A stretch of 44,685 bases of DNA from Clostridiaceae bacterium (GTDB taxonomy: Bacteria > Bacillota > Clostridia > Acetivibrionales > DTU013), in assembly GCA_012519745.1 (NCBI GenBank), contig JAAYPO010000032.1:1-44685 (forward strand), written 5' to 3'. The first letter of the stretch is position 1. Each line of letters starts with the position of its first letter. The translations under genes were made by a program, and so were the position numbers. The notes under the pieces are model-generated. The model did no database searches. It saw only the letters and a list, made by a program, of their open reading frames with translations, and was not told the DNA's origin. Shown one piece after another: positions 8,648 through 40,936 of this stretch.

Positions 8648-8689
8648 TGCAGATCTCTCCCGACCCCTCTAATGTGGCACAGAGCCATA

Positions 8690-9514: not shown

Positions 9515-9787
9515 GTGTAACCTCCATCCATTTGACAGGGATCAGAACAAAGCCGATAGTCATCAGACTGCTTAGCCTGAATTTGTTTTCAATACAGCCG
9601 GTGTGATGTGCCATGAATTGTAAATATTATACCCGTAATTTGGTATGAATAAACGAACTGTATGTATCGGCATTGACGGATAACAAAATATATTTTGAAT
9701 TAATCAATACCGGGTAATAATAGTGTATAATAATGTAAATGAAACAGATCACATATTATTGGTTTTTATTACGATCGCGGGGGTGAG

Positions 9788-10663: not shown

Positions 10664-10707
10664 GATCCAAAATCATAATGAAATGAATAGCAGGACCGGT
10701 GTAATGC

Positions 10708-10744
10708 AAATAATACCTGTAAAAGAAATTACAGGTATTATTTT
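10708..10744 (+). terminator. strong hairpin terminator after galU
   Basis: A perfect 15-bp stem, AAATAATACCTGTAA (10708-10722) with its complement at 10729-10743, and a six-base loop. The T-rich 3' arm forms the tail. The hairpin ends one base before the ATG of the next open frame. Confidence 0.75.
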
Positions 10745-11209: not shown

Positions 11210-11260
11210 AAAATCAACCATTGGTTGCAGCGGCAGTCTAACGATGTCCGATAATAAAGC

Positions 11261-11320
11261 AAAAGCGCAAATGGTATATACTTATTGAATTAGTAATAAG
11301 TATTATACGATTCGCGCCTT
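11261..11320. terminator. 60-bp imperfect palindrome between convergent genes
   Basis: AAAAGCGCAA (11261-11270) opens and TTCGCGCCTT (11311-11320) closes a long imperfect dyad whose inner arms are TACTTATT and AATAAGTA. It lies between the ends of the small repeat-protein gene and the phosphodiester glycosidase gene. On the minus strand it is followed by TTTTGCTTTATT, so it most likely terminates the glycosidase transcript and possibly both. Confidence 0.5.
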
Positions 11321-16720: not shown

Positions 16721-18214
16721 ATGAATATGGTTGCTCGCCTGCTGATTGCGGTTTTCCTATGCCTGGGCCTGACAGGTTGCTCATCAGTTATAAATGTCAA
16801 AGAGCCATCTCATTCACCCAGTCCGACACTTACTCCTCAGGAAAGTACATATTCATTTGATGGACCGGAAGGAAATAGTATGGAAAACAGCCGGAATAAC
16901 GATGAGAAGAATAGCGGCGCAGAAGGAGAAAATGTTATTACGGTCTATTGCGATAGCGGAGAAGTAGTTAAGTTTATCAAAAAATTTCAGGAGCTTCATC
17001 CCGATTTTGAATATGAAATCGAAATATATACTGAATATGCGTTTGGTGATGAATACCCGGAACGTGTTCATGATTTGATTAACGGAAGATTGGGCGTTAT
17101 TCCCGACATATACAGTGTAATAACTGAAGATATCTGCAGGTTCACCAAGGGAAGCGATTATCATTATGCCGTACCTTTTGAAGAGCTGGGCATTGATGCT
17201 GAGAAACTCGTGAAAGAAGCTGAAATCCCCCAGTACATGATCGATGTATGCACCAACCCAGAGGGAAAGCTTGTGGCACTGGGATATCAAAACACCGCGG
17301 GAGCTTTCATCTATCGCCGCTCCATTGCCAAAAAAGTCTGGGGGACCGATGATCCTGAGGTTATCAGCGGTAAAATCGGACCCGGGTGGGACAAGTTCAT
17401 GAATGCGGCGGACAAGTTAAAAGCAAAGGGGTATGTTATCTGTTCCGGTATTTATGATTTATGGAAACCCTTTGAAATGAATGCAGAGCAGGGATGGTTC
17501 AAGGACGGCCTGGTAATCGATCCGACACGGGAAGAATTTCTGGATTACGCCCGGGAGATGGTTGAAAAAGGCTATACCAATAATACAATTTGGTGGACTA
17601 ATGAGTGGTACGCAGACATGAAGGGGGAAGGTGAGAGGGAGGTATTCGGATTTTTTGGCCCCTACTGGCTGGTGAGTTATGTCATTGCCGGTAACAGCGG
17701 TGGAGACAACCCAGGGGAAGGGACATATGGCGACTGGGCTGTGTGCGACCCACCGGCAGGTTTTTTCTGGGGAAACACGATGTTCCTGGCCCACAGGAAT
17801 ACCAGGCACAAGGAAGCGGTAGGTGAGATCATCCGCTGGCTGACTCTGGACACTTCTGAAACCGGGGCTCAGTATTTGTGGGCCACCGGGGAGATAAGCG
17901 GAAGCATGGAAATTCCCTCATCCGTAATGGTCTCAAAAAAACTTGAATACAAGTATGATTTTCTGGGGGGACAGGACATGCTTGAGGCCTATCTGCCCGC
18001 AACGCAATATGCGCATGGAGACAGCCAGTCGGAGTATGACAGCTGGATCGGCTATTTATGGCAAAATGAGGCTATGGAATATGCACAGGGGAATAAAACA
18101 CGTGAGCAGGCTATCACCGATTTTAAGGTGCGTGTGGATGAGCATTTAAAATATCTTGCCAAAATGGAAGCTTATTGGGATAAACCTGAGGAAACCGGCG
18201 GACCGAGTAATTGA
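16721..18214 (+). CDS. extracellular solute-binding lipoprotein (family 1), orphan
   Basis: A 497-residue substrate-binding protein of the ABC sugar-uptake type. The signal peptide ends in a lipobox LTGC, with Cys20 as the lipidation site, followed by a Ser/Pro/Thr-rich spacer (SHSPSPTLTPQ). The mature part has the family 1 binding-protein pattern, including ITVYCDSGEVVKFIKKFQELHPDFEYEI and a WGNTMFLAHRNTRHKEAVGEIIRWL stretch near the C-terminus. The ATG at 16721 follows AAAGGGGGAT; the open frame begins 19 codons earlier without a ribosome site. No permease or ATPase gene is adjacent, so it is an orphan in this window. Many aromatic residues suggest a carbohydrate ligand. Confidence 0.85.
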   Translation: MNMVARLLIAVFLCLGLTGCSSVINVKEPSHSPSPTLTPQESTYSFDGPEGNSMENSRNNDEKNSGAEGENVITVYCDSGEVVKFIKKFQELHPDFEYEIEIYTEYAFGDEYPERVHDLINGRLGVIPDIYSVITEDICRFTKGSDYHYAVPFEELGIDAEKLVKEAEIPQYMIDVCTNPEGKLVALGYQNTAGAFIYRRSIAKKVWGTDDPEVISGKIGPGWDKFMNAADKLKAKGYVICSGIYDLWKPFEMNAEQGWFKDGLVIDPTREEFLDYAREMVEKGYTNNTIWWTNEWYADMKGEGEREVFGFFGPYWLVSYVIAGNSGGDNPGEGTYGDWAVCDPPAGFFWGNTMFLAHRNTRHKEAVGEIIRWLTLDTSETGAQYLWATGEISGSMEIPSSVMVSKKLEYKYDFLGGQDMLEAYLPATQYAHGDSQSEYDSWIGYLWQNEAMEYAQGNKTREQAITDFKVRVDEHLKYLAKMEAYWDKPEETGGPSN

Positions 18215-18295
18215 ACGAAATGCAGAAACCTTTATTAACCCGGGCATGATCCATGCCGATAAACCATTTATAATGATATGGATGGGAGAGCCCTG

Positions 18296-19372
18296 ATGTG
18301 CCGTTTATCCTTAGCAATGATCGTAAAAAATGAAGAGAAGCACATAGCAAGATGTCTGGACAGCGTCAGAGGGATCGTTGATGAGATCATCGTGGTGGAC
18401 ACCGGTTCCACCGATAAAACAAAAGAGCTGGCGATGAGCTATGGCGCCAGTGTCTATGATTTTGAATGGATCGATGATTTTTCCGCTGCACGCAATTTTT
18501 CGATCGAAAAATCTACAGGGGACTGGAATCTTTTCCTTGATGCAGACGAATATATCACAAATGACTGCCGTGATATAATAAGGCGGTTTATAAATAATAA
18601 CCAGGCAATAGGAAAGATCGCCTGTACGAACTATTTTTACGATGGTGACGAACTGCATAAAAGGATATCGCATATTTCAAGGCTGGCCCCGAAATCGGTC
18701 TTTTTCGAAGGCAGGATCCATGAACAGTTATGCAGCGACCTGCCAAGGATAAATGTCGACGTTCAGGTATCTCATGATGGATACCTGAAGGAAGGAAAAA
18801 GTGACAGAAATCTCCCGATATTGTACTCCGAGCTTGAGTCCGATCCCAAGAATCCATATATATTATATCAGATAGCCAGTACCCTTTTCGCTTCAAAAAA
18901 ACATGCCGAAGCAGATCAGTACTTCAGGGCTTTTTATGAATGCGCGCCGATTCTGGCAAATTACAGATATACCGGTATCGTATCATATTTGTATAACATC
19001 ATTGCCCTGAAAAAATTCGAAGAAGGCCTTCAAATCATAGCCAATGAAAAAGACAGGCTGAGCGGATTTCCCGATTTTCACTTCGTTTGCGGCATTTTTT
19101 ATATGGAGCTGGTTTTGTCCGATGTGGGAAGATATATAAAGTATCTGCCCCTGATCGAGCAGGAATATCTCATGTGCCTGGAGATCGGCGAAACGGATGT
19201 ATTCGATAGTGTGGTCGGGACCGGCAGCTATTGTGCAGCTTATAATCTGGCAGCATATTATGAGGTTTCGGGAAACACTGCAAAGGCATTGCAATACTAT
19301 GAAATGTCGCACAAATGGGGATATGAAAAGGCCAGCCAAAGACTTGCCGTTCTGAAACCTACGATCCGCTGA
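18296..19372 (+). CDS. family 2 glycosyltransferase with TPR-like C-terminus
   Basis: A 358-residue inverting GT-A glycosyltransferase. The N-terminus carries SLAMIVKNEEKHIARCLDS and IIVVDTGSTDKT, and the acceptor/metal motif is LDADEY (about 82-87). The region beyond residue 190 is helical, with pairs resembling TPR units (YILYQIASTLFASKKHAEADQYF, YNLAAYYEVSGNTAKALQYYEMS). This layout is common in bacterial glycan loci. The start at 18296 is chosen because GGGAGAG lies seven bases upstream; the frame could begin six codons earlier. There is no membrane segment. It is the first gene of the island. Confidence 0.9.
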   Translation: MCRLSLAMIVKNEEKHIARCLDSVRGIVDEIIVVDTGSTDKTKELAMSYGASVYDFEWIDDFSAARNFSIEKSTGDWNLFLDADEYITNDCRDIIRRFINNNQAIGKIACTNYFYDGDELHKRISHISRLAPKSVFFEGRIHEQLCSDLPRINVDVQVSHDGYLKEGKSDRNLPILYSELESDPKNPYILYQIASTLFASKKHAEADQYFRAFYECAPILANYRYTGIVSYLYNIIALKKFEEGLQIIANEKDRLSGFPDFHFVCGIFYMELVLSDVGRYIKYLPLIEQEYLMCLEIGETDVFDSVVGTGSYCAAYNLAAYYEVSGNTAKALQYYEMSHKWGYEKASQRLAVLKPTIR

Positions 19373-19470
19373 AATACCTGCGGACCATTCTTATCATTAC
19401 CATTGGGGATGATAAAATAAAAACTAATAAATATTATATCTGTAAGAAACGGTAACTAAGGAGAAACGTC

Positions 19471-21999
19471 ATGAGGAAGTATATAAAAAAACGTCTTTTC
19501 TCTATAATGAGCACAATGAATGAAGCACATACGATAATATATGAACAGGTGAAGAAGAAAAATTTCGACATGGCGTATCAACTATTGGGAGATTGTCAGG
19601 CCTGTGCCATAGAGATTGGGACAACCATAGAACAAAACGAAGGAGAGGGGCATAGTGCCGTCCATATACTCGAGGATTATTGTGAAGCAGTATATCAGTT
19701 CAGCCAATCAATGGATCGTGAAGCAAATATAGATAAATCTCTGCAAGAGCTTCAAAAACTGTTAAATAAAGCATGGGACAGCTTGAAATACACCATTTGG
19801 GAAGATAAACTGGAAGTTGTTTTTCTTCCGGATAAAGCATCCGTTTGGGACAGCCTGGAAAGTGTATGGCTGGCTGCCAGGGATGATGCTGAATGTAATG
19901 TTCATGTCATTCCCATTCCATATTTTGATAAAAATCCTGACGGAACATTTAGCGAAATGCATTATGAGGGCAGCCAATTCCCTGATTACGTGCCAATAAC
20001 AGATTGGCAGGAATATAATCTGGAACAGCACCATCCTGATGTCATCTATTTTGTAAATCCATATGACGGTCACAATTTAGCTACTTCAGTGCATCCATAC
20101 TTTTATACAGAAAAACTGCGCAATTTTACAGACTGTTTAGTGTATATACCGTATTACTGCAGCGGTGGAACCCAGGCAGAGCAATTTTATGAGCAACCTG
20201 CCTATTACCGGGCAGATAAAATTATTGTGCAGTCACCGCGGCTAATCGAATATTTTACACCGAATGTTCATCCGAAGATTGCGGCATTGGGATCACCGAA
20301 ATTTGACAAGGTATTGAATTATAAGCAAGAGCAAAGCCAGGTATATGATGAATGGCGAAAAATTGCGGGAGGCAGGTCTGTAATAATGTATAATACCAGT
20401 ATTTCCAGTGTTCTGAGATATGATATGCAGGCGATCATTAAAATCAGATCAATATTCGATCTCGTGAAAAACATGAACGATGTGGTGCTGTTGTGGAGGC
20501 CGCATCCTTTGATCAAGTCGGTGATTAAATCGATGCGCCCGGAATTATTGAAAGAGTTCAATGAGCTTGAGCAGGAGTTTATAGACAGTAAGATCGGGAT
20601 CTATGATGATACTTCTGATATAACTGCGTCTGTAGCTTTTTGCAGTGCCTATATAGGGGAAGAAACATCATCGGTCGTGCATTTGTTTGGGGTCCTGGGA
20701 AAGCCTATCTTTCTTTTAAATATGAATATCATAGGGCAGACAGAGGATGAAAAACTACACTTGCATTTTTATGACGCAGCCGAAGTTAATGACGAATTAT
20801 GGTTCCCTTCAGGGAGAAACAATGTATTATACAGTATAAAAAAAGGCAGCAATGAAGTGATGCTGCAAAGCTTCGGACCAAATTATGTAAAGAAGAACAG
20901 GCTGTTCAATAAGATATTGTCTATGGGAGACAGTGTATTCCTGATCCCGTATAATCATAATGCGATTTGTGAATACAATACACACACTAAAGTATGGAGA
21001 AGCACAGCGATAAATAATGCCTTAAGTTATGCGAACTTTTCGAGCGGATGCATTTATAGGGACACTGTATATATGATTCCTGCAAAATATGATTGTATAG
21101 TTGAATATGATACCAAAAGCCGCCAATGCCGCTACTATGAAATGCGTTCCAAGCTAAAAGAATATGAAGATCTTCAAGTCGATCCGAAACTTGATAATGA
21201 CCCTTTGTTCTTTAACGGAGTCTGCCGGCAGGGCAATTTAATATTAATGGCATCAGCGAGAACGAATCGAGTATTAGAGTTCAATACAGACACCAAAGAG
21301 ATAAACTCATATGAAGTGGGGAAGGAAGGAAACAACTACTGGGGGATGGCATATGATGGCGAAAACTATTGGCTGATCTCAAACAGGGGTAAATATATAG
21401 TGAAATGGAACTATCATACAGGACATTTTGCTGAATATGATATGTTCCCTGACGGTTTTAACGGAGAGACGCAGTGCTTTTTGAATATTACATACAGTAA
21501 TGGGTATCTGTTTGTCTTCCCCAAATATTCAAACATGATTTTGAAGATCGACAAGTACAACGGAAATATGACTTTTGCGGATTTCGAGCTTCCTTTCAAA
21601 GAAGGGGAAAGGAAAAGCAGTAATTATACCTGGCCCAGCAACTACTATTTTTCTAAAGCTTTGCAGGATGATACCGTGATCGCGATGTCTGCTTATGATA
21701 ATTCGCTGCTTCTGATCGATACGAAAAATATGAAATGCAAACTTCAGCATTGCATGGTGAATGCAAACGATTGGCCGGCAGATATTGCCGGTAAATTTGG
21801 TAAATGCGGCAAAAATATCCCTTTTGCATGCAGAGAGGATAATAATACAACAATAGGTGAGTTCATTAAATATGTGAAAGATCCGGATGAAAAAATACGT
21901 GAAAACCAAATCCGTGCATATAATGAGGTCACTTCCAACATGGACGGAAGCTGCGGAATGAAAATACACCAAATGATATTGGATGAATTCAGGAGCTAA
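19471..21999 (+). CDS. TagB/TagF-like transferase fused to a beta-propeller
   Basis: An 842-residue protein with an unusual pairing. Residues 1-105 are helical. Residues about 110-440 follow the GT-B fold of CDP-glycerol glycerophosphotransferases: LLWRPHPL lies near the middle and GEETSSVVHLFGVLGKPIFLLN stands where the family has TDYSSVxxDxxLLxKPxxF, so an acidic Glu pair replaces the usual Thr-Asp. Residues about 445-760 are repeating strands of roughly 45-50 residues with aromatic and Asn/Asp turns (DSVFLIPYNHNAICEYN, DTVYMIPAKYDCIVEYD, NLILMASARTNRVLEFN, ENYWLISNRGKYIVKWN, GYLFVFPKYSNMILKID, DTVIAMSAYDNSLLLID), which I read as a six-bladed beta-propeller. AAGGAG precedes the ATG. No signal peptide is present. 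The gene after it starts three bases later. Transfer of a polyol-phosphate or sugar is inferred; the propeller may bind an acceptor glycan. Confidence 0.7.
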   Translation: MRKYIKKRLFSIMSTMNEAHTIIYEQVKKKNFDMAYQLLGDCQACAIEIGTTIEQNEGEGHSAVHILEDYCEAVYQFSQSMDREANIDKSLQELQKLLNKAWDSLKYTIWEDKLEVVFLPDKASVWDSLESVWLAARDDAECNVHVIPIPYFDKNPDGTFSEMHYEGSQFPDYVPITDWQEYNLEQHHPDVIYFVNPYDGHNLATSVHPYFYTEKLRNFTDCLVYIPYYCSGGTQAEQFYEQPAYYRADKIIVQSPRLIEYFTPNVHPKIAALGSPKFDKVLNYKQEQSQVYDEWRKIAGGRSVIMYNTSISSVLRYDMQAIIKIRSIFDLVKNMNDVVLLWRPHPLIKSVIKSMRPELLKEFNELEQEFIDSKIGIYDDTSDITASVAFCSAYIGEETSSVVHLFGVLGKPIFLLNMNIIGQTEDEKLHLHFYDAAEVNDELWFPSGRNNVLYSIKKGSNEVMLQSFGPNYVKKNRLFNKILSMGDSVFLIPYNHNAICEYNTHTKVWRSTAINNALSYANFSSGCIYRDTVYMIPAKYDCIVEYDTKSRQCRYYEMRSKLKEYEDLQVDPKLDNDPLFFNGVCRQGNLILMASARTNRVLEFNTDTKEINSYEVGKEGNNYWGMAYDGENYWLISNRGKYIVKWNYHTGHFAEYDMFPDGFNGETQCFLNITYSNGYLFVFPKYSNMILKIDKYNGNMTFADFELPFKEGERKSSNYTWPSNYYFSKALQDDTVIAMSAYDNSLLLIDTKNMKCKLQHCMVNANDWPADIAGKFGKCGKNIPFACREDNNTTIGEFIKYVKDPDEKIRENQIRAYNEVTSNMDGSCGMKIHQMILDEFRS

Positions 22000-22002
22000 G
22001 CC

Positions 22003-23634
22003 ATGCCGACAGTGAATATGAAATACTGTTCAAATGAGAAAAGTGAACTGACTGATTTTGATAAAAAGATCATCGACTATATCTTCGCTAACTCAGACGA
22101 AGATTATTCTGCTGTTCTGGAAAAGGATGGAGATCTGGAAGTCTTCCACCAACTTGCAAAAACAAGAGAGTCGATCCTTAATTGGTATGATTTCAAGGAA
22201 AATTCCAATGTGTTAGAGATTGGATCCGGATATGGAGCGATAACCGGCCTGTTATGTGACAAGTGTAAGTCCGTGACCTGTGTGGAATCCAAAACTTATA
22301 TAGCCGAAGCTTTGGCGAAGAGATGCAAAAACAGAACAAATCTTGAGGTCTATGCAGGCAATGTATTGGACATGCACTTTGATATTAAGTTTGATTATAT
22401 CGTAATGCTTGGAGTACTGGAATATCAGGGTAATGGCAGTAAAGGGAAGGACCCGTATATTGAGTTTATCAGAAGGATAAAAGAACTTTTAAATGATAAT
22501 GGTAAAATGTTGATTGCGGCAGAAAACCGTTATGGAATACGATATTTTTGCGGGGAAAGGGAACCATTCTCCAACATTCCCTTTTACGGGATCAACAGAT
22601 ATCCGAATGGCTGTGATGCTTATGCATTTGACAGGCGAGAGCTGGCAGACATAATTAAAGAAAGCGGACTGCAGTATAAATTTTATTATCCTGTGCCGGA
22701 CTACAAACACACGCAGATGATATTTTCCGATGAGTACCTTCCGAAGAGCAGCCTGAGGGAAAGGATCGTGCCTTATTATAGAGATAAATCGACACTGGTT
22801 GCATTGGAGAAGGATTTGTATGATGATCTGGTTGCGAACGATGTATTTACTTTTTTCTCAAACTCATTTCTTGTTGAGTGCGGATACGACAACAACTTCT
22901 GCGATGTACTTTCAGCAGCTCTATCTACGGATAGAGGTAATGAACATGGATTTGCTACAGTTATCAGGAAGCATAGCGTTGAGAAAAGGGCTTTGGACAA
23001 AAGCGGATTTCAAAGTTTGAAGACCATATATGATAATATGCTGGATATGGAGAAGCATGGGATCAATATCGTGAGGCAGAGCCTGGAACCGATGAAATTG
23101 ACTATGCCTTATATAGATAAAAATACACTCTCGGATGTGTTAAGAGAAGCTTTAAGAAATGATACGGATAAGTTCATAAAATTGCTCGACTTGCTGTATG
23201 AGGAGATTTTAAAATCGTCCGAGCATGTTGACGAGAGATATAATGCATTACGTAAGGGAGCGGATGATAATAGAAATTACGGAACTATTTTAAGTAAGGC
23301 ATATATCGACATGATCCCTATTAATTGCTTCTATGACGGGGGCAAGCTGATATTTTTCGATCAGGAATTCGTAAGAGAAAACTACCCCGCATCATATACT
23401 ATGTTTCGCGCATTGAAGTACACCTATTCCTTCATTACCTTTGCAAACGGCATCGTGCCTTTGCAGCAAATGAAGGAACGTTTCGAACTGATAGAATTGT
23501 GGGATGACTATGTTAAAGAGGAAAACGAGTTCGTCCGGGAAAACAGAGATTTCAGAACGTACGGGCATTTCTGGAAGAGGGCAGGCGTTAATAAAACAGA
23601 TATCATTGCCAATATAAAGCATTCAATAGTTTAA
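22003..23634 (+). CDS. SAM-dependent methyltransferase fused to a kinase-like domain
   Basis: A 543-residue two-domain protein. Residues 40-230 are a class I methyltransferase with the SAM motif VLEIGSGYGAITG (70-82), an acidic VTCVESK strand end (91-97) and a motif IV-like DYIVMLGVLEY (131-141). Residues about 265-520 look like a small-molecule-kinase fold: a beta3-like lysine in ATVIRK (K323), a hinge-like MPYID (368-372), a catalytic-loop-like YIDMIPIN with D436 and N441 five residues apart, and FFDQE (452-455) where DFG or DxE is expected. This order is that of WbdD, the E. coli O9a chain terminator that methylates and phosphorylates the glycan end. The functional parallel is inference. 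It sits between the propeller fusion and licD with short gaps. Confidence 0.72.
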   Translation: MPTVNMKYCSNEKSELTDFDKKIIDYIFANSDEDYSAVLEKDGDLEVFHQLAKTRESILNWYDFKENSNVLEIGSGYGAITGLLCDKCKSVTCVESKTYIAEALAKRCKNRTNLEVYAGNVLDMHFDIKFDYIVMLGVLEYQGNGSKGKDPYIEFIRRIKELLNDNGKMLIAAENRYGIRYFCGEREPFSNIPFYGINRYPNGCDAYAFDRRELADIIKESGLQYKFYYPVPDYKHTQMIFSDEYLPKSSLRERIVPYYRDKSTLVALEKDLYDDLVANDVFTFFSNSFLVECGYDNNFCDVLSAALSTDRGNEHGFATVIRKHSVEKRALDKSGFQSLKTIYDNMLDMEKHGINIVRQSLEPMKLTMPYIDKNTLSDVLREALRNDTDKFIKLLDLLYEEILKSSEHVDERYNALRKGADDNRNYGTILSKAYIDMIPINCFYDGGKLIFFDQEFVRENYPASYTMFRALKYTYSFITFANGIVPLQQMKERFELIELWDDYVKEENEFVRENRDFRTYGHFWKRAGVNKTDIIANIKHSIV

Positions 23635-23666
23635 GCATTTACGATTTTGCATACGAGGGGATTAGA

Positions 23667-24866
23667 ATGCAGGATAATTTGTCGGGGGATGAAGTCAGAT
23701 GCGGCTATACAGTCAGCTCTGAAATGAAAAAAATATGGTCGATCGAACTTGATCTGGCAAGAAAACTAAAAGAGGTATGCGAGAAATACCATCTGCGATT
23801 CTATATGCAGGCGGGTACTTTGCTTGGAGCAGTAAGGCATCAGGGGTTTATACCCTGGGATGATGATATGGATTTTGTAATGCCCAGGGAGGATTTTGAT
23901 ATTCTGGAAAGTATTGCACATAAGGAATTTGCTGAACCATACTTTCTTCAGACTATGAATAATTCAGAAGAAATATTCAATAATGGAAAAGCACTTCTTC
24001 GAAACAGTAGTACTACAGGGTTACAACTACACAGGGATTTGTTCAAAAAAGGGAATCATGGAATAGCGATTGATATTAACGCTTTGGATAATATCTATGA
24101 CTGCCCCCAAAAACGTAGAAGATATTGGGAAAAGGCGGACATGTTACTAAAGATAACGACACTGAAATATTATGGCACCAAAGTTAAGAAGACTGGCGAT
24201 TTGACCATATCATTCAGTGATAGGATGAGGTATTATACTAATTTTGACAATAAGCAAATGCTATGTAGGAAATTGCGGGATGTGTTCGTATCGTGCACTG
24301 ATAACAATTCCAAGTACCTTAATATAATTACGCAGGCAAACTACCGGCACAATATATATTACCGCGCAGATTTTGATAAATGTATCTTTCTAAAATTTGA
24401 AGATATGGAACTCCCTGCTCCAATAGGTTATGATCGGGTACTTAGAACAGATTTTGGCGACGATTATATGACGTTGCCGCCTCATAGTCAGAGACACCCT
24501 CACCATTACCCGGTGGTAAGGACGGATATATCGTATAGAGTGTATATGAAACATTTTCAGGACATTTTTACCAATACAGCCGGACGAAAAATAATAATAT
24601 TCGGTGCCGGTCAAATGCTGCTTCATTATCTTACCCATACTCATAAAAAATTTCATCCTGCTTTTGTTGTAGATAATAATAAGGATAAATGGGGTACGTT
24701 TGTTGAAGGATTTGAAGTCCGAGACCCGAATTGCATTTTGGATCTGGCTGATGATGAGCGGCATATCATTATTTGCAGCATCTATTATAAAGAGATAGAG
24801 ACCCAACTGATCGATATGGGGATCAATAATTATTATTTTTATGTGCAAAATCCCAAATGGCTATGA
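23667..24866 (+). CDS. LicD family phosphotransferase with C-terminal Rossmann-like module
   Basis: LicD proteins attach phosphocholine or other phospho-groups to cell-surface glycans from CDP-activated donors. The 399-residue protein has the complete LicD signature: GTLLGAVRH (50-58) and PWDDDMD (63-69), the Asp cluster being the metal site. Residues 306-399 form a separate module beginning IIIFGAG, with VVDNNKDKWG and HIIICSIYYKEI, which recurs in five other island proteins. GAGGGG precedes the ATG. The licD stop is 15 bases from the end of the opposing HAD gene. No choline-uptake genes are nearby, so the donor could be CDP-glycerol or CDP-pentitol rather than CDP-choline. Confidence 0.88.
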   Translation: MQDNLSGDEVRCGYTVSSEMKKIWSIELDLARKLKEVCEKYHLRFYMQAGTLLGAVRHQGFIPWDDDMDFVMPREDFDILESIAHKEFAEPYFLQTMNNSEEIFNNGKALLRNSSTTGLQLHRDLFKKGNHGIAIDINALDNIYDCPQKRRRYWEKADMLLKITTLKYYGTKVKKTGDLTISFSDRMRYYTNFDNKQMLCRKLRDVFVSCTDNNSKYLNIITQANYRHNIYYRADFDKCIFLKFEDMELPAPIGYDRVLRTDFGDDYMTLPPHSQRHPHHYPVVRTDISYRVYMKHFQDIFTNTAGRKIIIFGAGQMLLHYLTHTHKKFHPAFVVDNNKDKWGTFVEGFEVRDPNCILDLADDERHIIICSIYYKEIETQLIDMGINNYYFYVQNPKWL

Positions 24867-24881
24867 AGAGGATAACTTGTA

Positions 24882-27206
24882 TTAATTTTCCATGCTGATT
24901 ATTTTCACATCCTTGCCGTGAGTGTCCTTTAGTAGTTCTGATATTTCTTCAATAACTGTTTTATTTAATGCTGTGATAACAAAGCAATTGCTTTTAGTTT
25001 TAGTCGAAATTGGATACACTTTCTGACCACATACTTCAATATCTTGCAAGAATGGATTGCTGTCCATTACCATTTCTATTCTTTTAGTTTCATCCAGTAT
25101 ATTCAGGAAAGCGATAATATCATTCAAACGATCTCCTGCGCCAACCAGGACAAATGTTTTTTCTAATTTGCAAATCCTCTCGACAAACAATGCATACTTA
25201 TACTGTGTAGTATTCCTTTTTAAAAAACATATTTTTTTATAATTATCCAGCCCGTTTAGACAGGCATCCATACCCTGATACCATTCATCTTCCCTTGCCT
25301 TTTCCTGACATACGAATTCCGAATAACCCAGCTTTTTATACTCCTCCAATTTATGATCCGATATAATTGTCCAACTTTTATTTATTCCAAAATTCTGATC
25401 GTATTGCATTTCACCGATCATATTTGCTTCTTTCCTTGTTGGAACATTCATCATCCTTCCCACTAACATTAATAATTGCCCCGGATCTTGACGAATCTCT
25501 CCTCCCTTTAGTTTGCATAATTCATAGTATTTTTTTTGAAAATTCAGAATCCCTTTCTGCACACAACTCATCATTTCTAGTTGATATTTATCATAATGGA
25601 CAACTTCCAAAATCGGGATATATTCGCCCCCTCTTTGCTCATATCCGATAGTTGTCCCTTCATCGCACATTAAAAACATCTCAAAAATAGGTATAATTAT
25701 TTCATTTAGGTAGCTTTCGTTCTTTCCAAAGCTTCCGGTAAAACCACGTATTTCACAATTATCTTCCAAATTGTGTTCACTTATTAAAGATTTTATACCA
25801 TTGATCAGCAAATGGAGGCCTTTTACTTCAACACTATGTTTATTCATGATCCGTTGGATGGCATTTTGCGCATTTCCTCTCCATCCAACATCAAAAGTTA
25901 TATAGGGACCTTTATCCAGGCCCAATCCTTTGAGATATCCAAATAAACACTCGTCAGCATTTTGATTGTGATCTCTTATTTCCTTAATTACCTGTTCATC
26001 ATATAAACATGCTTTAATCTTGGAAAATACAGATCCGTCTTTATCCCATATCTTTTTTGTCTCTATTAAATTATAATTCCAATATTTACGAAAAGACTCC
26101 CCGTACTTCACTGCATCCAATAGCTCGAATAACTTGCCGACGGTCATTTTCTTCGTGGAAATAATATAATTTATGTCTTTAGGTTTAAGGACGCTTAATA
26201 GTGCCGGGTATAAGGCTCTGCGTGAAATATACATTGGTTGAATGATGCCATCCCAATTCCTTTGTTTCTTAGCTTGCTGCAGTAAATTCGCTAAAAACTT
26301 TCCCTCCCGCATCATCGGGTATATCCTTTTTATACCGTTTGCTTCCGCTGTATCTAGTACCCATTCTGCTGCATAAGTCAGGATAGGACCCATAATCATA
26401 CTTCCCAATTCGCGCCAGAACTTTTTATTCTCATCTTCTCTTTCATTCTCTATCTGGGATGCAATTAGCCTTAATGTATGAATCTCATCACAAATATATC
26501 CGTATTTTTCCACCTCATATCTCGTATATGGATACTTTGAAAAGGCTTCGGAAATTAATGGATAGAAATATGCTTTCATGCCCCTTTCCCTTGCCGCCTG
26601 ATAATCACTTTTTTTGCTATCACCTATGTGAATTATTTTGTCTGCTCCGCATCTCAGTTCTTCAATTACAAAGTCAAATAGCCTGCCGCTTCTTTTGGTA
26701 TATCCAATTTCAGAAGATATATATATTTGATGAACATACTTTAAATTTAACCCATTTTCTACCATTATTTTTTTTATATGATCTTTATGCAAATACATAT
26801 CAGAAACTAAAATAACTTTTTTCTTAAATTTATCGACAACAGAAAATAAAAATTCGGTAAGCTCTGTATTTAAATAGCTGTTTTTTGATTCACATTCTAT
26901 TTCCAGCCTTTTGATTTCTTCGCGACTTTCTATTATTTGCGGTAATTCATCATAAATATCATCAATGCTTATTTCAAAGCCTTTCTTTTTTTCACGTGCA
27001 AATTGCTCCGCTTTTGCACGGATTTCCCTCCATTCCCTTGCATCAATGTAAGCTGGGAAAAGGTAAGGAGCGGCCTCATATGTTTTATCAAAAATCCTTG
27101 CAGGATGCCTTACCATGCGAAATAATAACGTATCATAGATATCAAAGCTCACATAGGAAACATTATCTAATTCTTCGAGAATTCTTTCGATCACTTTGTC
27201 CCCCAT
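24882..27206 (-). CDS. HAD-like protein with C-terminal Rossmann-like module, opposite strand
   Basis: A 774-residue protein and the only island gene on the minus strand. Residues 15-220 are a HAD domain: motif I is FDIYDTL with nucleophile D22, a Tyr replacing the usual second Asp as in haloacid-dehalogenase-type members; motif II is LVSD (133-136); K171 lies in YTKRSG; the motif IV region is GDSKKSD (195-201). Residues 250-670 are an uncharacterised region found in large HAD proteins of polysaccharide loci. Residues 683-774 are the shared Rossmann module (VLVGAG, VMDSNP). The ATG at 27206 lacks a ribosome site; a GTG four codons later has GGGGGA before it and may be the true start. Base composition is clearly AT-rich. 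Substrate unknown. Confidence 0.78.
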   Translation of the reverse strand: MGDKVIERILEELDNVSYVSFDIYDTLLFRMVRHPARIFDKTYEAAPYLFPAYIDAREWREIRAKAEQFAREKKKGFEISIDDIYDELPQIIESREEIKRLEIECESKNSYLNTELTEFLFSVVDKFKKKVILVSDMYLHKDHIKKIMVENGLNLKYVHQIYISSEIGYTKRSGRLFDFVIEELRCGADKIIHIGDSKKSDYQAARERGMKAYFYPLISEAFSKYPYTRYEVEKYGYICDEIHTLRLIASQIENEREDENKKFWRELGSMIMGPILTYAAEWVLDTAEANGIKRIYPMMREGKFLANLLQQAKKQRNWDGIIQPMYISRRALYPALLSVLKPKDINYIISTKKMTVGKLFELLDAVKYGESFRKYWNYNLIETKKIWDKDGSVFSKIKACLYDEQVIKEIRDHNQNADECLFGYLKGLGLDKGPYITFDVGWRGNAQNAIQRIMNKHSVEVKGLHLLINGIKSLISEHNLEDNCEIRGFTGSFGKNESYLNEIIIPIFEMFLMCDEGTTIGYEQRGGEYIPILEVVHYDKYQLEMMSCVQKGILNFQKKYYELCKLKGGEIRQDPGQLLMLVGRMMNVPTRKEANMIGEMQYDQNFGINKSWTIISDHKLEEYKKLGYSEFVCQEKAREDEWYQGMDACLNGLDNYKKICFLKRNTTQYKYALFVERICKLEKTFVLVGAGDRLNDIIAFLNILDETKRIEMVMDSNPFLQDIEVCGQKVYPISTKTKSNCFVITALNKTVIEEISELLKDTHGKDVKIISMEN

Positions 27207-27422
27207 AACTATAAAGAGTTTTACTTGATTTTATCATACTTCCATGCGCCTATAAAGATATGCTAATATCTTATTCTAGAGGATGTATTAACATATATGG
27301 CTATACATTAGGAGTCCCTTTTAACTTGGAAACATTTATAACTGGACATAAAAAGCCGATAAATACAATAATGGTGTAAGAAAAGATGCAAGGGAATAAC
27401 AAACGAAAAGAGGGATGATTGC

Positions 27423-28070
27423 ATGTATGAGCTGTGTGCATCTATGATGTGTGCAAAGTTTGACAATTTATCGCGGGAAGTAAAAACATTAGAAGAAGCA
27501 GGAATTGACAGTTTTCATATTGACATTATGGATGGACAGTTCGTACCGAATTTCGGAATGGGGCTTCAGGATCTGGCATATATCAGAAAGGTAGCTAAGA
27601 AGCCGGTTGATATACATTTGATGATAAAAAAGCCTGACAGCTACCTGGATATTTTCATTAAAAATAAGGTCGATTGCATATACATACACCCGGAAGCAGA
27701 TTATCATCCGTCCACAACTCTGCAACATATTATTGAAGCAGGAATTGTGCCTGGTATAGCAATTAATCCGGGAACGTCAGTTGAAAGCATTCTCGAACTA
27801 CTGTATATCGTTGACCGGGTTCTGGTTATGGCGGTAAATCCGGGACAAGCAGGGCAGGTGTACCTGCCTTATGTCGGAAAAAAGGTTGAAAAGCTGCTGG
27901 CACTGAGAGAAGAATGTAAGTTTGATGTTTATTGGGATGGCGCCTGTACAGCGGACAAGATCAGAACATATGGACCAAAAGGAGTCAAGGGGTTTGTTCT
28001 GGGTACTGGATTACTGTTTGGACACAAGGAAACATATAAGGAACTAATTAAAAAAGTAAGAGAAATCTAG
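27423..28070 (+). CDS. ribulose-phosphate 3-epimerase family protein
   Basis: Interconverts D-ribulose 5-phosphate and D-xylulose 5-phosphate in the canonical family. The 215-residue TIM-barrel shows FHIDIMDGQFVPNFGMG (catalytic Asp and metal-binding His/Asp), VDIHLMIKKPD (metal His), VMAVNPGQAGQ (the VNPGFGGQ-type phosphate-binding loop) and DVYWDGACT in place of the usual DGGI, with the catalytic Asp kept. The ATG follows GAGGGATGATTGC. The next gene, a TarI-type cytidylyltransferase, begins 11 bases after its stop, so this copy is likely dedicated to making a CDP-pentitol precursor rather than to the pentose phosphate pathway. The divergent 216-base gap before it (27207-27422) holds no gene. 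Confidence 0.88.
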   Translation: MYELCASMMCAKFDNLSREVKTLEEAGIDSFHIDIMDGQFVPNFGMGLQDLAYIRKVAKKPVDIHLMIKKPDSYLDIFIKNKVDCIYIHPEADYHPSTTLQHIIEAGIVPGIAINPGTSVESILELLYIVDRVLVMAVNPGQAGQVYLPYVGKKVEKLLALREECKFDVYWDGACTADKIRTYGPKGVKGFVLGTGLLFGHKETYKELIKKVREI

Positions 28071-28081
28071 AGGTGTATAGC

Positions 28082-28807
28082 ATGAATGTTGCACTAATAT
28101 TCGCAGGCGGAGTAGGGACCAGAATGAAATCCTACGGAAAACCGAAACAGCTTTTGGAATTGGATGGGAAATCTATACTGATCCATACGATATTAAATTT
28201 TGAGAGACACAAAGATATTGATGCAATTGTTGTCGCATGTTTGAAAGAATATATTGATACTTTAAAGGGAGATATTGAAAAAAGTAATATCAAAAAAGTC
28301 AAATGGATCGTACCGGGTGGAGAAACAGGCCAGCAGTCTATCTATAATGGGTTAAAGAAAGTATATGATGAAGTGCATAACCCAGAAGATATAATCGTAC
28401 TGCTGCACGATGGATGCAGGCCGATTGTGTCGGCAGATGTAATATCCGATAATATTGAGTGCGTAAAGAAGTATGGTTCATCAGTTACAGTATGCCCTGT
28501 ATCTGAAACAATAGTTGAAGTAGATGACACAGGTTCAATTTACAATATTCCGATAAGGAAACGCTGCTACTTATCTAAAGCTCCTCAGGGATTTTATCTA
28601 TCAGAGCTTATGAAAGCACATAATAAAGCAATTGAAGAAAATAGATTTGATTGTACCAATTCAGCCGAATTAATGCACAGATATGGACATTCACTCCATG
28701 TAGTGTATGACACTGATGAAAACATAAAAATTACCACTCCCACGGATATGATTATCCTGGAAGGTCTTATGAAATATAGAAAAAGTGGAGAAGCAAATGA
28801 AGGATAA
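28082..28807 (+). CDS. IspD/TarI family cytidylyltransferase (CDP-pentitol type)
   Basis: A 241-residue cytidylyltransferase of the IspD/TarI group, which transfers CMP to a polyol phosphate. The signature FAGGVGTRM with KPKQLLEL (CTP-binding loop) lies in the first 25 residues, LLHDGCRP (family DAxRP motif) near the middle, and KITTPTDMIILE near the end. The context with glycerophosphotransferase-like genes favours a TarI-like role over isoprenoid synthesis. An upstream GTG at 28073 overlaps the GAGGTG ribosome site, so the ATG at 28082, six bases after that site, is chosen. The end overlaps the SDR gene by 11 bases. Confidence 0.85.
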   Translation: MNVALIFAGGVGTRMKSYGKPKQLLELDGKSILIHTILNFERHKDIDAIVVACLKEYIDTLKGDIEKSNIKKVKWIVPGGETGQQSIYNGLKKVYDEVHNPEDIIVLLHDGCRPIVSADVISDNIECVKKYGSSVTVCPVSETIVEVDDTGSIYNIPIRKRCYLSKAPQGFYLSELMKAHNKAIEENRFDCTNSAELMHRYGHSLHVVYDTDENIKITTPTDMIILEGLMKYRKSGEANEG

Positions 28808-29858
28808 AATACTGGAAGAAGATCTGGAATATATCATTGAAAATGAGCAGGGTATGCTGAGGTTTTTAAGAAATAAAAGGATACTGATAACCGGTGCGAC
28901 CGGGCTGATCGGATCACAAGTTGTTAAAACCCTGCTTATGTTTAATGATAAGTGCGATGCGGGAATTTACATAATCGGTGTTGCAAGAAATAAAGAAAAA
29001 GCAGATAGCGTTTTCAAAGACTGGATTAGCCGAAAAGACTTCAGGATGATTTTTACCGATATATGTAAAGAAATCAATATTGAAGATAATATTGACTTTA
29101 TTATACACGGTGCAAATACTACAATATCAAAAGAATATGTGGATAAGCCTGTTGAAACTGCACTAACGATAATAAATGGTACAGATAATATTCTGAAATT
29201 GGCGGTTAAACACAGTATCAAAAGTATGGTATACCTATCCTCAATGGAAATGTATGGTATACCGGATGAAAAGAACAGCTGTATGAAAGAAAATATGGCA
29301 GGATATATCGATCCACTGAACGTGAGAAGCAGCTACTCCGAAGGAAAAAGGATGGCTGAAAACTTATGTGCATGTTATTGTAAAGAATATGGCGTTCCGG
29401 TCAAGATTGCCAGACTGGCACAGGTTTTTGGAGCAGATGTGAGCATAAATGACAATAGAGTGTTTGTACAGTTCGCGATGAGTGTTATTAACCATAAAGA
29501 TATTGTTCTTCATACGAAAGGTGAGTCCTATGGGAATTATTGTTATACACGGGATGCAGTTTCCGCAATTTTGATGCTGTTGGAGAAGGGTAGAAATGGA
29601 GAAGCATATAATGTTGTGAACGAAGCAACGAATATTCAGATAAAGGCAATGGCAGAAATGGTTTCTGAAAGGATTGCAAACGGAGAAATTAAAGTGGTCT
29701 ATGATATACCCGACTCAATAATGAAGTATGGATATGCACCGGATGTAGCACTTAAACTTTCGTCGGAAAAAATGAACAAATTGGGATGGAAAAGTGAAGT
29801 GGGGCTGGAAGAAATGTATCGGCGGATGATACAGAGTTTTTTGTATAGGATGGAATGA
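28797..29858 (+). CDS. extended SDR (NAD-dependent epimerase/dehydratase family)
   Basis: A 353-residue extended short-chain dehydrogenase/reductase. The cofactor loop is GATGLIG (33-39), and the active-site region reads VYLSSMEMYG followed by a catalytic SYSEGK (YxxxK). In the order epimerase-cytidylyltransferase-SDR it could reduce the keto-pentose, as free phosphate or as CDP derivative, to a pentitol; a TarJ-type alcohol dehydrogenase is missing from the window, which supports this. Acting as a sugar-nucleotide epimerase is the alternative. The ATG at 28797 has GGAG six bases upstream and overlaps the preceding stop; an in-frame GTG at 28785 lies before that site and is not preferred. Confidence 0.85.
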   Translation: MKDKILEEDLEYIIENEQGMLRFLRNKRILITGATGLIGSQVVKTLLMFNDKCDAGIYIIGVARNKEKADSVFKDWISRKDFRMIFTDICKEINIEDNIDFIIHGANTTISKEYVDKPVETALTIINGTDNILKLAVKHSIKSMVYLSSMEMYGIPDEKNSCMKENMAGYIDPLNVRSSYSEGKRMAENLCACYCKEYGVPVKIARLAQVFGADVSINDNRVFVQFAMSVINHKDIVLHTKGESYGNYCYTRDAVSAILMLLEKGRNGEAYNVVNEATNIQIKAMAEMVSERIANGEIKVVYDIPDSIMKYGYAPDVALKLSSEKMNKLGWKSEVGLEEMYRRMIQSFLYRME

Positions 29859-29861
29859 AAT

Positions 29862-31400
29862 ATGAAATTTATGAAGCGTTCCGTACAACAGTTAAAAAAT
29901 ATGTGTCACAAAAAACAATGTATAATTTATGGCTTTAATGAGTGGTCTAAGTTGGTTTTGATCAAGACCGGTATTATCTCGGAAGTTGCTTATATTATCG
30001 ATGAAAATCCACACGTATGGGGAACTTCACAGCAAATTGGTGAAAGCACCTTCCGGATTGACTCTCCTGAACTACTGACCGGGATCAATGCTTTTGATTA
30101 TCATATTATAATCATATCTATGTACCAGGAATTGCTTTATGAAAAACTTCAAAAAATCATTGGAAAGGATAAAAACATAATTATATATTATTGTCCTTCG
30201 GATGACGATGTAAAACTTACTCGATTTAGACCGTTCCTAATGAAACTTAAGCTACAGAATAGAATTGTTTTCAGAAGCGGCCCTGAAAATGGCGGTGGAA
30301 ATTGGGATTATGCCGATAATGCAAGAGCTATGTTTGAGTATATGATACAGAATCGGTATAATGAAAAATATGAGCTTATTTGGGCTGTCGAAGATGTCAG
30401 CAAGTATCAACACTTAGAAAAAGAGAAGAATGTTAAAGTCATATCTTACAGGGATGCCGGATCAGGTAATCTGATTAAGGCATTTATATATCAATATTAT
30501 TTGTACACTGCAAAATATTTTTTGTTTACGGATACATGTATTTGGCTCAGATTCCATCGAAAAGACCAGGTATTGGTTAATCTTTGGCATGGATGTGGAT
30601 TTAAAAACAGGAAAAGTAAAACAGAACCAACCGGTCCGCACTATGACTATATGACTGTTACCAGTCAATTGTATGCAGATATTCATGCAGAAATTTTCGG
30701 CTGCAGAAAGGAACAGATGCTGATCACCGGATTGGCAAAAGAGGATTGGCTGTTCCATCCGGTTGATGGGCAGCTAGCTGATTTACTGGATTTGAAGCTT
30801 TGCAGAAAATATATATTCTGGCTTCCGACTTTTCGGAGAACAATCAGCGGCATGGAAAGACTATCCGAAGACTATGCCTTATCTGAAACTGGATTACCTG
30901 TCCTGGAAACGTTTGATTGCATACGGGAAATTGATTGGCGATTAAAGGATCATGACATTTTTTTATTCATAAAACTGCACCCAAACCAGTATTACAATCA
31001 GCAGAACCATCAATATAGCAACATTAAAGTAATGACACATGCTGAGTTCATGAAATACGATATTCCCATTAATCGATTACTGGCAATGACAGATGCGCTT
31101 ATAACCGATTATTCTTCGGTAGCAGTCGACTATATGTTGCTTGATAAACCGATTGCTTTTACTTTGGATGATATGGAAGCATATAAAGCTGGCAGGGGAT
31201 TTGTATTTGAGAATATTATTGATTTTTTACCTGGAAGGATGATCTATACTAAGGAAGAATTTGCTTCATTTCTTAATGAAATATCGGCAGGAATTGATAG
31301 TTCAAAAGACAAAAGGGATAAGCTGTTTAGTCTTATGCACGAATATCATGATGATAATAATTGTAAAAGGATTTTGGAAAAGGTGGGAATATCCAAGTAA
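29862..31400 (+). CDS. TagF-like CDP-polyol phosphotransferase with N-terminal Rossmann-like module (copy 1)
   Basis: A 512-residue two-domain protein. Residues 18-112 are the shared Rossmann-like module (CIIYGFNEW, YIIDENPHVWG, YHIIIISMYQE). Residues 130-505 are the CDP-glycerol:polyol-phosphate transferase domain of teichoic acid enzymes: NLWHGCGFKNR (WHG at 242-244, catalytic His region), FLFIKLHPNQ (KLHP) and ITDYSSVAVDYMLLDKPIAF (nucleotide-binding region) are intact. The family transfers glycerol- or ribitol-phosphate from CDP-donors. It begins four bases after the SDR stop. The next gene is a close paralogue of the same layout. No membrane-binding helix is visible. Confidence 0.88.
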   Translation: MKFMKRSVQQLKNMCHKKQCIIYGFNEWSKLVLIKTGIISEVAYIIDENPHVWGTSQQIGESTFRIDSPELLTGINAFDYHIIIISMYQELLYEKLQKIIGKDKNIIIYYCPSDDDVKLTRFRPFLMKLKLQNRIVFRSGPENGGGNWDYADNARAMFEYMIQNRYNEKYELIWAVEDVSKYQHLEKEKNVKVISYRDAGSGNLIKAFIYQYYLYTAKYFLFTDTCIWLRFHRKDQVLVNLWHGCGFKNRKSKTEPTGPHYDYMTVTSQLYADIHAEIFGCRKEQMLITGLAKEDWLFHPVDGQLADLLDLKLCRKYIFWLPTFRRTISGMERLSEDYALSETGLPVLETFDCIREIDWRLKDHDIFLFIKLHPNQYYNQQNHQYSNIKVMTHAEFMKYDIPINRLLAMTDALITDYSSVAVDYMLLDKPIAFTLDDMEAYKAGRGFVFENIIDFLPGRMIYTKEEFASFLNEISAGIDSSKDKRDKLFSLMHEYHDDNNCKRILEKVGISK

Positions 31401-31412
31401 GAGGTGAATACA

Positions 31413-32951
31413 GTGATATTCAAAATTGGATCGGAAGATCTCATAATAGAATTGGCCCAAAGCTATCGGTTTATTTGCTTTGGATATGGGGCCATGCTAA
31501 AAGCATTATGCCGGAACACAGGAATCGCAAAATCGATAGATGCAGTCGCGGATAATAATGAAGCCCTATGGAATACCTACGGTCATATTGACGATGTAAA
31601 ATTCAACATTATATGTCCTGATGAAATTGGCAAATACTTAACAGACAAGCATATATTGTTGATTACAACCACATATTATAAGCAGGTACAGGATCAGCTT
31701 TACCTTACTTTGACAACGTATACGGGGCCAGTTTATTATTTCCCGTCTGATAGAGATTTAAAGTATGAGGAATATGTGAAACTCCATAACGGCGAACCTC
31801 TAAAGGATATCATTGTCTTTAGAAGTGGCCTGGCAGAATATGTTGAGGGGTTTGATTTTTCTGATAACGCTAAAGCGCTTTTTGAGTATATGTTGGAGAA
31901 AGAGTATAATAAAAAATACAGTCTTGTGTGGATGGTGAAATGTCCGGATGATTACGATAAATATGCCGGCATTGAAAATGTGGAGTTTGTATCGTACGAA
32001 TGGGAAAACGAAGAAGACAAAGAATTATCCAATAAGTATTTTCATGCAATGTATTTTGCAAAGTATTTTTTCTTCACAGATACGCATTTTTGGCTTCGCA
32101 ACTGCAGAACAGGACAATTACGAGTTAATTTGTGGCATGGTTGTGGGTTTAAAGACCGTAAAAAGAAAAATGGCCCTTGCAGAAAGTGTTATGATTTTAT
32201 GACAGTCAACAGTGATGCTTATGCAGCAATCCATGCGGAAGAATATGGATGTGACGCAGAACAAATGCTTGTAACCGGACTTGCAAAGCAAGACTGGCTG
32301 TTTAAAGGTATTGATCTTCCAATACATGAATTGCTGGGCATACAGAAATCAGATAAGTATATTTTTTGGCTGCCGACATTCAGAATGGCTGCAAAAGGGT
32401 TGGAACGCTTGAATGAGTATATTCTTGACTCGGAAACCGGATTGCCTATAATTACGACCGATATGAAAATGAGAGAATTGGATGATGTTTTAAAATCTTT
32501 AGATATGACATTAATTATTAAACTGCATCCGGTTCAGGATAATTCATTGATTGTCCACAAGCGTTACAATAATATTGCAATAGTTGATAATAAAGTGCTG
32601 ACAGCAATGGACTTACATATAAATTCTCTATTATCGCAGGCAAATGCGATTATAAGTGACTATTCATCTGTCGCGGTTGATTTTCTTTTACTGGATAGGC
32701 CTGTTGGATTTACGTTGGATGATTTGCAAGAGTATGAAAACAGCAGGGGTTTCGTATTTAATCCGATTAAGGATTACCTTCCGGGAAAAGAAATATATAA
32801 TTTCGATCAATTTATTGATTTTATTAAAGAAGTTTCTCAGGGGCTGGATAGCTCGAGGACACGCAGGCATATGTTGCTAAGCATTTTTCATAAATTCAAT
32901 GATGGTCAAAATTGCGAGCGAATACTAAAAAGCGTAGGAATCAGTGTTTAG
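31413..32951 (+). CDS. TagF-like CDP-polyol phosphotransferase with N-terminal Rossmann-like module (copy 2)
   Basis: A 512-residue paralogue of the preceding gene, collinear along its full length. The Rossmann-like module at residues 1-105 shows FICFGYGAM and VADNNEALWN. The transferase domain has NLWHGCGFKDR, IIKLHPVQD and SDYSSVAVDFLLLDRPVGF, so the catalytic motifs are kept. The GTG at 31404 is part of the GAGGTG ribosome site, so the GTG at 31413, six bases after it, is chosen; the gene thus follows copy 1 by 12 bases. With two CDP-donor synthases in the island, the two copies may use different donors (glycerol versus pentitol), which is inference. Confidence 0.87.
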   Translation: MIFKIGSEDLIIELAQSYRFICFGYGAMLKALCRNTGIAKSIDAVADNNEALWNTYGHIDDVKFNIICPDEIGKYLTDKHILLITTTYYKQVQDQLYLTLTTYTGPVYYFPSDRDLKYEEYVKLHNGEPLKDIIVFRSGLAEYVEGFDFSDNAKALFEYMLEKEYNKKYSLVWMVKCPDDYDKYAGIENVEFVSYEWENEEDKELSNKYFHAMYFAKYFFFTDTHFWLRNCRTGQLRVNLWHGCGFKDRKKKNGPCRKCYDFMTVNSDAYAAIHAEEYGCDAEQMLVTGLAKQDWLFKGIDLPIHELLGIQKSDKYIFWLPTFRMAAKGLERLNEYILDSETGLPIITTDMKMRELDDVLKSLDMTLIIKLHPVQDNSLIVHKRYNNIAIVDNKVLTAMDLHINSLLSQANAIISDYSSVAVDFLLLDRPVGFTLDDLQEYENSRGFVFNPIKDYLPGKEIYNFDQFIDFIKEVSQGLDSSRTRRHMLLSIFHKFNDGQNCERILKSVGISV

Positions 32952-33032
32952 ATACTTTTGACGAAAATGGCGTTAAAGCTTGAACTGCAAATTATTGTAC
33001 AAGCTATTACTGTGATAAAGGAGATTGCGTGT

Positions 33033-33956: not shown

Positions 33957-34013
33957 GCAGCAGGCCTGGTTTGAAAGCTATTAAACAAAGTTGTTACGAA
34001 AAGGGATGAGATT

Positions 34014-34703
34014 ATGAAAAAGTATAAAGTAGGTTACGTAGCAGGTGTCTTTGATTTATTTCATATCGGTCATCTTAACCTTCTGCGCAACGCCAAGGCA
34101 GAGTGTGAATACTTAATAGTAGGGGTTTTGACGGACGAACTTGCAGTATTTTTTAAAAAAAGCCCGCCGTTCATTCCGTTTGATGAAAGAAAAGAGATAG
34201 TAGATAATATAAAATTTGTGGATAAAACTGTTGCGGTAGATAAAACGAACATCAACAAAATGAAAGCCTGGGAATTATATCATTTTGATTGTCTTTTTTC
34301 CGGAAATGACTGGCAGTTTGAGAAAAGCTGGATAGAAGACAAAAAGAAACTTAATGAGGTCGGCTCTGATATTTTTTTCTTTCCATATACTAAGGGCACC
34401 AGTTCTACACAGATAAAAAAGCTAATCAGTAAAAGTGTTCCGTCAAATGATAAGATCATCATTTTCGGTGCGGGAGATAAAGGACGTGAGGCCCTCAGCT
34501 TTTATGGTGATGAAAGGGTTGCTTGTTTTGCGGATAATGACACAGCAAAGATAGGTCAGATCATTGATGGGCATCCGGTTATTTCATTTGACGAAGTGTT
34601 GAAATTGATGACTGAATATAAAATAGTGATTACAGTAAAGAAACATGAAGAAATAACAAAGCGATTACTAGAAAATGGAATCCGTGATTTTGAAGTGTAT
34701 TGA
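34014..34703 (+). CDS. TagD-like cytidylyltransferase with C-terminal Rossmann-like module
   Basis: A 229-residue fusion. Residues 5-140 are a nucleotidyltransferase of the TagD/glycerol-3-phosphate cytidylyltransferase type: the CTP-binding GVFDLFHIGH (HIGH at 17-20), the DERKEIV segment, and GTSSTQIKK as the ISTT-like signature. TagD makes CDP-glycerol from CTP and glycerol 3-phosphate; a phosphoethanolamine cytidylyltransferase is a possible alternative. Residues 147-229 are the shared Rossmann-like module (IIIFGAGDKG, CFADNDTAKIG). The ribosome site AAAAGGGA lies shortly before the ATG. It is the last island gene; base composition changes after it. Confidence 0.87.
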   Translation: MKKYKVGYVAGVFDLFHIGHLNLLRNAKAECEYLIVGVLTDELAVFFKKSPPFIPFDERKEIVDNIKFVDKTVAVDKTNINKMKAWELYHFDCLFSGNDWQFEKSWIEDKKKLNEVGSDIFFFPYTKGTSSTQIKKLISKSVPSNDKIIIFGAGDKGREALSFYGDERVACFADNDTAKIGQIIDGHPVISFDEVLKLMTEYKIVITVKKHEEITKRLLENGIRDFEVY

Positions 34704-34861
34704 GCAGAGCTGTGAGAATACATTACCACCTTAATACGGATATATATAACAGCCGTAAAGAGACACGATCAGCATGAACGAAGGAGCTATTAAATAAAAT
34801 GCTGTGAACAAGTGTCAAATAAACATAGAAATAGGGTGACGATCTCCTATAAAAACGAGCA

Positions 34862-40880: not shown

Positions 40881-40936
40881 GAGGCAGAACCCGTTAATTT
40901 CACATCGATATACATACCGTAAGGAGGATTTTGATC

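Follow-up and report, generated by a model that had tools for sequence, protein, structure and literature searches.

The gene and its locus

The gene lies near the middle of the window, by which we mean the whole stretch of 44,685 nt of clostridial DNA that was analyzed, and encodes in a clean frame a protein in which a methyltransferase is joined to a kinase-like domain. The features of the locus and of the protein are:

19471..21999, + strand: upstream partner, 842 aa, with a weak Glyphos_transf (TagF-like) core and a C-terminal propeller-like region (Pfam)
22003..23634, + strand: methyltransferase-kinase, assigned by sequence to the Klebsiella pneumoniae O7 ORF6-N type, 543 aa, clean frame
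22003..22872, + strand: methyltransferase domain, residues 1-290 (Pfam; residue comparison)
22216-22236, + strand: motif I of the methyltransferase domain, E72-x-G74-x-G76-x-G78
22900..23631, + strand: APH-like kinase domain, residues ~300-543 (family conservation; profile comparison)
22984..22986, + strand: K328, the N-lobe lysine (95 of 97 aligned domains)
23308..23367, + strand: catalytic block D436-x4-N441 ... D453-Q-E455 (YIDMIPIN ... FFDQE; conservation in 102 domains)
23667..24866, + strand: LicD-family phosphotransferase with a C-terminal Rossmann domain (Pfam LicD, 5.6e-38; same position in L017)
24882..27206, - strand: HAD-domain protein, 774 aa (relatives adjoin the methyltransferase-kinase in L017, L082 and L083)
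27423..28070, + strand: ribulose-phosphate 3-epimerase family (Pfam, 6.4e-50)
28073..28807, + strand: IspD/TarI-type cytidylyltransferase (its best solved relatives are ribitol-5-phosphate cytidylyltransferases)
28785..29858, + strand: SDR reductase/epimerase (Pfam Epimerase, 3.7e-35)
29862..32951, + strand: two TagF/TarL-type polyol-phosphate transferases (29862-31400 and 31404-32951; Pfam)
34014..34703, + strand: TagD-type cytidylyltransferase with a Rossmann domain (among its best solved relatives are ethanolamine-phosphate and glycerol-3-phosphate cytidylyltransferases)

An FkbM methyltransferase is also part of the locus. The three genes with Glyphos_transf matches (19471-21999, 29862-31400 and 31404-32951) are the only ones in the genome. 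A TagF-like gene upstream of the methyltransferase-kinase is also found in two related loci, L017 (from a Lachnospiraceae metagenome-assembled genome) and L074. The proteins concerned, of about 840 aa and with the same weak-TagF and propeller-like make-up, recur beside methyltransferase-kinases of the same clade (window 19471-21999; L017:7471-9975; L074:13867-16416; L155:12229-14898); neither a PDB relative nor a clear Pfam match was found for them.

L017 shares both order and content with the window from the TagF-like gene to IspD, the methyltransferase-kinases being 44% identical. The GC content is 35-40% across the genes from 18278 to 34703, compared with 43-51% in the flanks, and no match to the methyltransferase-kinase was found in four genomes of the same genus; it is therefore probable, as judged from composition and occurrence, that this polysaccharide island (window 18200-34750) was acquired horizontally. 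Neither the locus nor the rest of the genome encodes a Wzt glycan-binding domain (Wzt_C), and four Wzx-type flippases lie on other contigs. Adjoining the island, at 38529-43558, are two tandem SLH-domain proteins with DUF4832 and DUF4874, i.e., surface proteins of the S-layer type. The product of 11347-14265 on the - strand, 972 aa long, contains a phosphodiester glycosidase (NAGPA) domain.

The methyltransferase and kinase halves

The original claim of a SAM methyltransferase in the first half is borne out by three Pfam models, all above their cut-offs (Methyltransf_12, 1.8e-8; Methyltransf_23, 6e-8; Methyltransf_11, 1.8e-7), and by an intact motif I. Residue comparison identifies E95 and Y141 as the counterparts of E112 and Y158 in the O7 terminator of K. 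pneumoniae. At the positions of Y28 and Y66 in that enzyme, both retained by nearly all Wzt-linked members of the family, the window protein has S14 and H49.

The second half is not matched by any Pfam or PDB sequence model, since such searches see the methyltransferase half only, and its assignment comes from conservation within the family and from comparison of profiles. Of 102 homologous kinase domains, 101 keep D436 and all keep N441, D453 and E455, so that most of the kinase marks first noted in this half stand; the lysine does not, K323 being without conservation and K328 being the conserved one, and the His of the HxD motif is missing, the sequence there being Y434-I435-D436. The segment MPYID, earlier called hinge-like, does sit within a family block (F-x-Y-x-x-G-x-x-L) at the position expected for the APH hinge. 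In profile-profile comparison the whole-family kinase profile matches a set of 22 APH-family kinases at the catalytic loop, with Prob 78 and P 1.8e-5. As controls, nine decoy families reach Prob 39 at most, and WbdD, whose kinase has been solved, scores 67 with these 22 kinases. The profile of the window's clade alone is too weak for this comparison (Prob 4.3), and AlphaFold2, given two-sequence alignments of the window protein and L017, returned a pLDDT of 42 for the whole protein and 41.5 for the kinase only, values too low for a usable model. On the evidence of its conserved residues and of the family profile, we classify the second half as kinase-like and APH-like. At the level of sequence both active sites are retained, the one through motif I, E95 and Y141 and the other through the kinase residues. 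This also gives a label to a kinase family unrecognized by Pfam.

Kinship with O7-type terminators and the two parts of the family

The fusion had first been likened to WbdD, the chain terminator of O-antigen synthesis. The comparison holds for the domain layout and for the proposed class of function, methyl-phosphate capping, but not for the family. Against the WbdD reference sequence, taken from E. coli HS, the kinase halves are unmatched (no BLASTP hit, and hhalign Prob of 0.1-0.3), and what the two proteins share is the generic SAM-methyltransferase core. The WbdD motifs DFG and HxDxxxxN are not present in the window protein, which has FDQE and YIDMIPIN instead, and a scan for coiled coils and tails did not find the C-terminal coiled coil and membrane-proximal tail of the WbdD type. 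We also considered an SxSWKxT tail as a WbdD trait common to the whole family; since the 11 kinase-bearing proteins that have it all lie outside the window's clade, we did not use it to define the family.

The real relative is ORF6-N of K. pneumoniae O7, a methyltransferase-kinase terminator described in 2024, set apart from WbdD by its authors and with orthologues in Proteobacteria and cyanobacteria (PMC11231755). There an unannotated 223-aa domain, which was shown to be a kinase, comes after the methyltransferase, and the protein continues with an Ig-like CBM, a coiled-coil segment and two GT modules; the substitution D441A abolishes the kinase activity, an AmiN-like model was given for this domain, and the product, a 3-methylphosphate on the terminal Rha, was proven biochemically (PMC11231755). 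The published residues of the methyltransferase are Y28, Y66, G91, G93, E112 and Y158 (PMC11231755).

The link to O7 runs through these printed residue positions and through two homologues, found by searching plasmids by tblastn with family members: a protein of 1457 aa from Pseudomonas asturiensis and one of 649 aa from Citrobacter braakii, each encoded directly behind Wzm-Wzt with Wzt_C. In the Pseudomonas protein each of the six residues has the very position number published for O7, and the kinase Asp is residue 443; the kinase domain of this protein matches the family with E 2e-7 (for a database size of 200,000), the best of 200 shuffles reaching 5e3. By profile, the family kinase matches the gammaproteobacterial O7-type kinase with Prob 97 and E 7.5e-11 over 212 columns, and the kinases of the window's clade match those of the other clade with Prob 100 and E 2.7e-39. 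Because the Pseudomonas protein has the six O7 residues and a kinase that matches the family, we place the window protein, by sequence homology, in the O7 ORF6-N family. Its lack of Y28 and Y66 does not disqualify it, because the homology is independent of those two residues. It is nevertheless a variant and not a typical member, judging from its architecture, since it ends at residue 543, right after the kinase, and has neither the Ig-like CBM nor the coiled coil. As a side observation, a conjugative plasmid of C. braakii (L203; NZ_CP136728.1, plasmid pF217-3) carries a dTDP-rhamnose/Wzm-Wzt/methyltransferase-kinase/glycosyltransferase cluster that resembles a mobile O-antigen-type locus.

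Homologues were gathered from L017 and from 750 Clostridia genomes. Matches occur in 23 of the 391 genomes of a class-wide Clostridia sample and in 106 of 299 genera of one large family (f42, probably Lachnospiraceae); among viral contigs no relatives were found. Our search of the literature for the O7-type family in Lachnospiraceae or other Gram-positives turned up nothing apart from the O7 paper and a second, related one. In O7 and O9a systems Wzt reads the capped chain end as the signal for export. Outside the window's clade, Wzt (counted if longer than 330 aa; samples were confirmed with Pfam, and the sampled Wzts carry Wzt_C) lies no more than six genes away from 76 of 87 members, 63 of which are directly downstream of it. 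Where the two activities are split, the separate kinase gene comes right after the methyltransferase-only gene in 31 of 34 cases. Among the proteins linked to Wzt, 42 of the 47 fused and 28 of the 29 split ones have an intact motif I. Read from gene order, the arrangement is the O9a/O7 O-antigen layout. The O7-type terminator is thus common in the sampled Clostridia, mostly in a full Wzm-Wzt-terminator arrangement. From this we would expect gut bacteria of Gram-positive lineage to make glycans of controlled length with methyl-phosphate caps.

The window's clade, a sister to these members, is arranged differently, with a Wzt neighbor in none of its 15 loci, a count that includes the less certainly placed L073. 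Its loci, which resemble those for teichoic acids and come from gut bacteria, contain LicD, TagF-like and CDP-polyol genes. The window protein and L017 group with 12 proteins to which a TagD-type cytidylyltransferase is fused (SH-aLRT 93 in the methyltransferase tree and 96 in the kinase tree), and the kinase tree also puts a degenerate standalone protein, L152, inside the clade. The 12 fused proteins (L074, L075, L081-L084, L087, L101, L153, L155, L156 and L167) combine a degenerate methyltransferase with an intact kinase: motif I is lost in 11 of them, so methylation is not a common function of the clade, while the kinase residues are intact. We found no description of such a fusion in the literature searched. 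The genes that follow the fused ones are mostly xylose-isomerase-like TIM barrels. In L073, two tandem paralogues (8194-9978 and 10074-11285) beside a TagF-like gene have C and S at the position of K328 and are possibly an inactive pair.

Proposed capping, its alternatives and known systems

Our preferred reading, which we consider an even call, is that the window protein is a methyl-phosphate capping enzyme for a polyol-phosphate surface glycan. The kinase would first add phosphate to a non-reducing-end hydroxyl of the growing chain, and this terminal phosphate would then be methylated by the methyltransferase, a sequence of steps that we infer for this protein; the capped chain could no longer be lengthened by TagF-like or LicD-like transferases. 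Because the genome has no Wzt glycan-binding domain, any length control would have to come from termination alone, with export by a route other than Wzt. For the same reason, and because the WbdD coiled coil and tail are missing, control of polymer length in the window locus is something we infer at most. The O7-type homology, the Wzt linkage of the relatives, the two retained active sites and the gene order conserved in L017 argue for capping. Against it, the window's clade has lost the link to Wzt and mostly gained a cytidylyltransferase, 11 of its 12 fused proteins are without motif I, and the window protein itself has neither Y28, Y66, CBM nor coiled coil, in a genome without Wzt_C.

The decay of the methyltransferase together with fusion to a cytidylyltransferase in most of the close kin hints at a change of chemistry, which is why a second reading has to be taken seriously, although we rate it as rather unlikely. 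Here the kinase would make a phosphorylated polyol, sugar or amino-alcohol, which the TagD-type cytidylyltransferase would activate to a CDP-donor for LicD or TagF, the methyltransferase being secondary or methylating the building block. Kinase and cytidylyltransferase share one chain in 12 of the 15 loci of the clade; the window has the TagD-type activity as a separate gene and LicD next door; the solved relatives of the TagD-type protein, with ethanolamine-phosphate and glycerol-3-phosphate among their substrates, fit such a donor; and the D-x-E-W/F of the kinase recalls D-W-E-Y, the motif of one LicA-like kinase from the APH set. However, the window protein has a complete SAM motif and no fused cytidylyltransferase, and the nearest homologue tested biochemically works on glycan ends.

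It is improbable that the protein adds phosphate or methyl-phosphate to residues within the chain or on side chains and leaves the chains unended. The adjoining LicD does suggest side-group chemistry and the genome has no Wzt to read a cap, but the characterized homologue modifies chain ends exclusively, and most family members have Wzt as a neighbor. We give still less credence to a terminator turned chain activator, in which the kinase of this clade would phosphorylate a glycan or polyol end, the often fused cytidylyltransferase would convert it to a CDP-activated end, and the CDP-glycan would serve as donor for TagF/LicD-type joining of blocks through phosphodiester bonds. A true WbdD orthologue, for which the identical order of domains speaks, can be set aside given kinases unmatched by sequence or profile, DFG in place of D-x-E, and the separate, strong homology to the O7 type. 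With its kinase kept, its methyltransferase decaying and a cytidylyltransferase fused, the window's clade is a natural experiment, and the purpose of the phosphate is therefore directly testable.

Among known systems, the LicA-LicC-LicD phosphocholine pathway follows the logic of kinase, cytidylyltransferase and LicD, with LicA acting on free choline. Like the window locus it brings an APH-type kinase, a cytidylyltransferase and LicD together; unlike the window protein, its kinase is not fused to a methyltransferase. WsaE of the Geobacillus stearothermophilus S-layer glycan is likewise a methyltransferase that terminates chains, in a Gram-positive Wzm-Wzt pathway, but it adds a 2-O-methyl cap, has no kinase and is fused to rhamnosyltransferases (PMC2943079). 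WbdD of E. coli O9a and K. pneumoniae O3 has the same order of methyltransferase and kinase and a proposed methyl-phosphate cap, but its kinase belongs to a subfamily unrelated by sequence and it carries a coiled-coil ruler (PMC3482155). The closest parallel is the K. pneumoniae O7 terminator, with homologous halves in the same order, equivalent SAM residues and the catalytic Asp (D436 here, D441 in O7). That protein is longer, with the CBM, the coiled coil and the two GT modules after the kinase, and acts on an O-antigen of the rhamnose/ribofuranose type (PMC11231755), and its close homologues sit behind Wzm-Wzt, whereas the window protein consists of the two domains alone and belongs to a TagF/LicD/CDP-polyol locus without Wzt.
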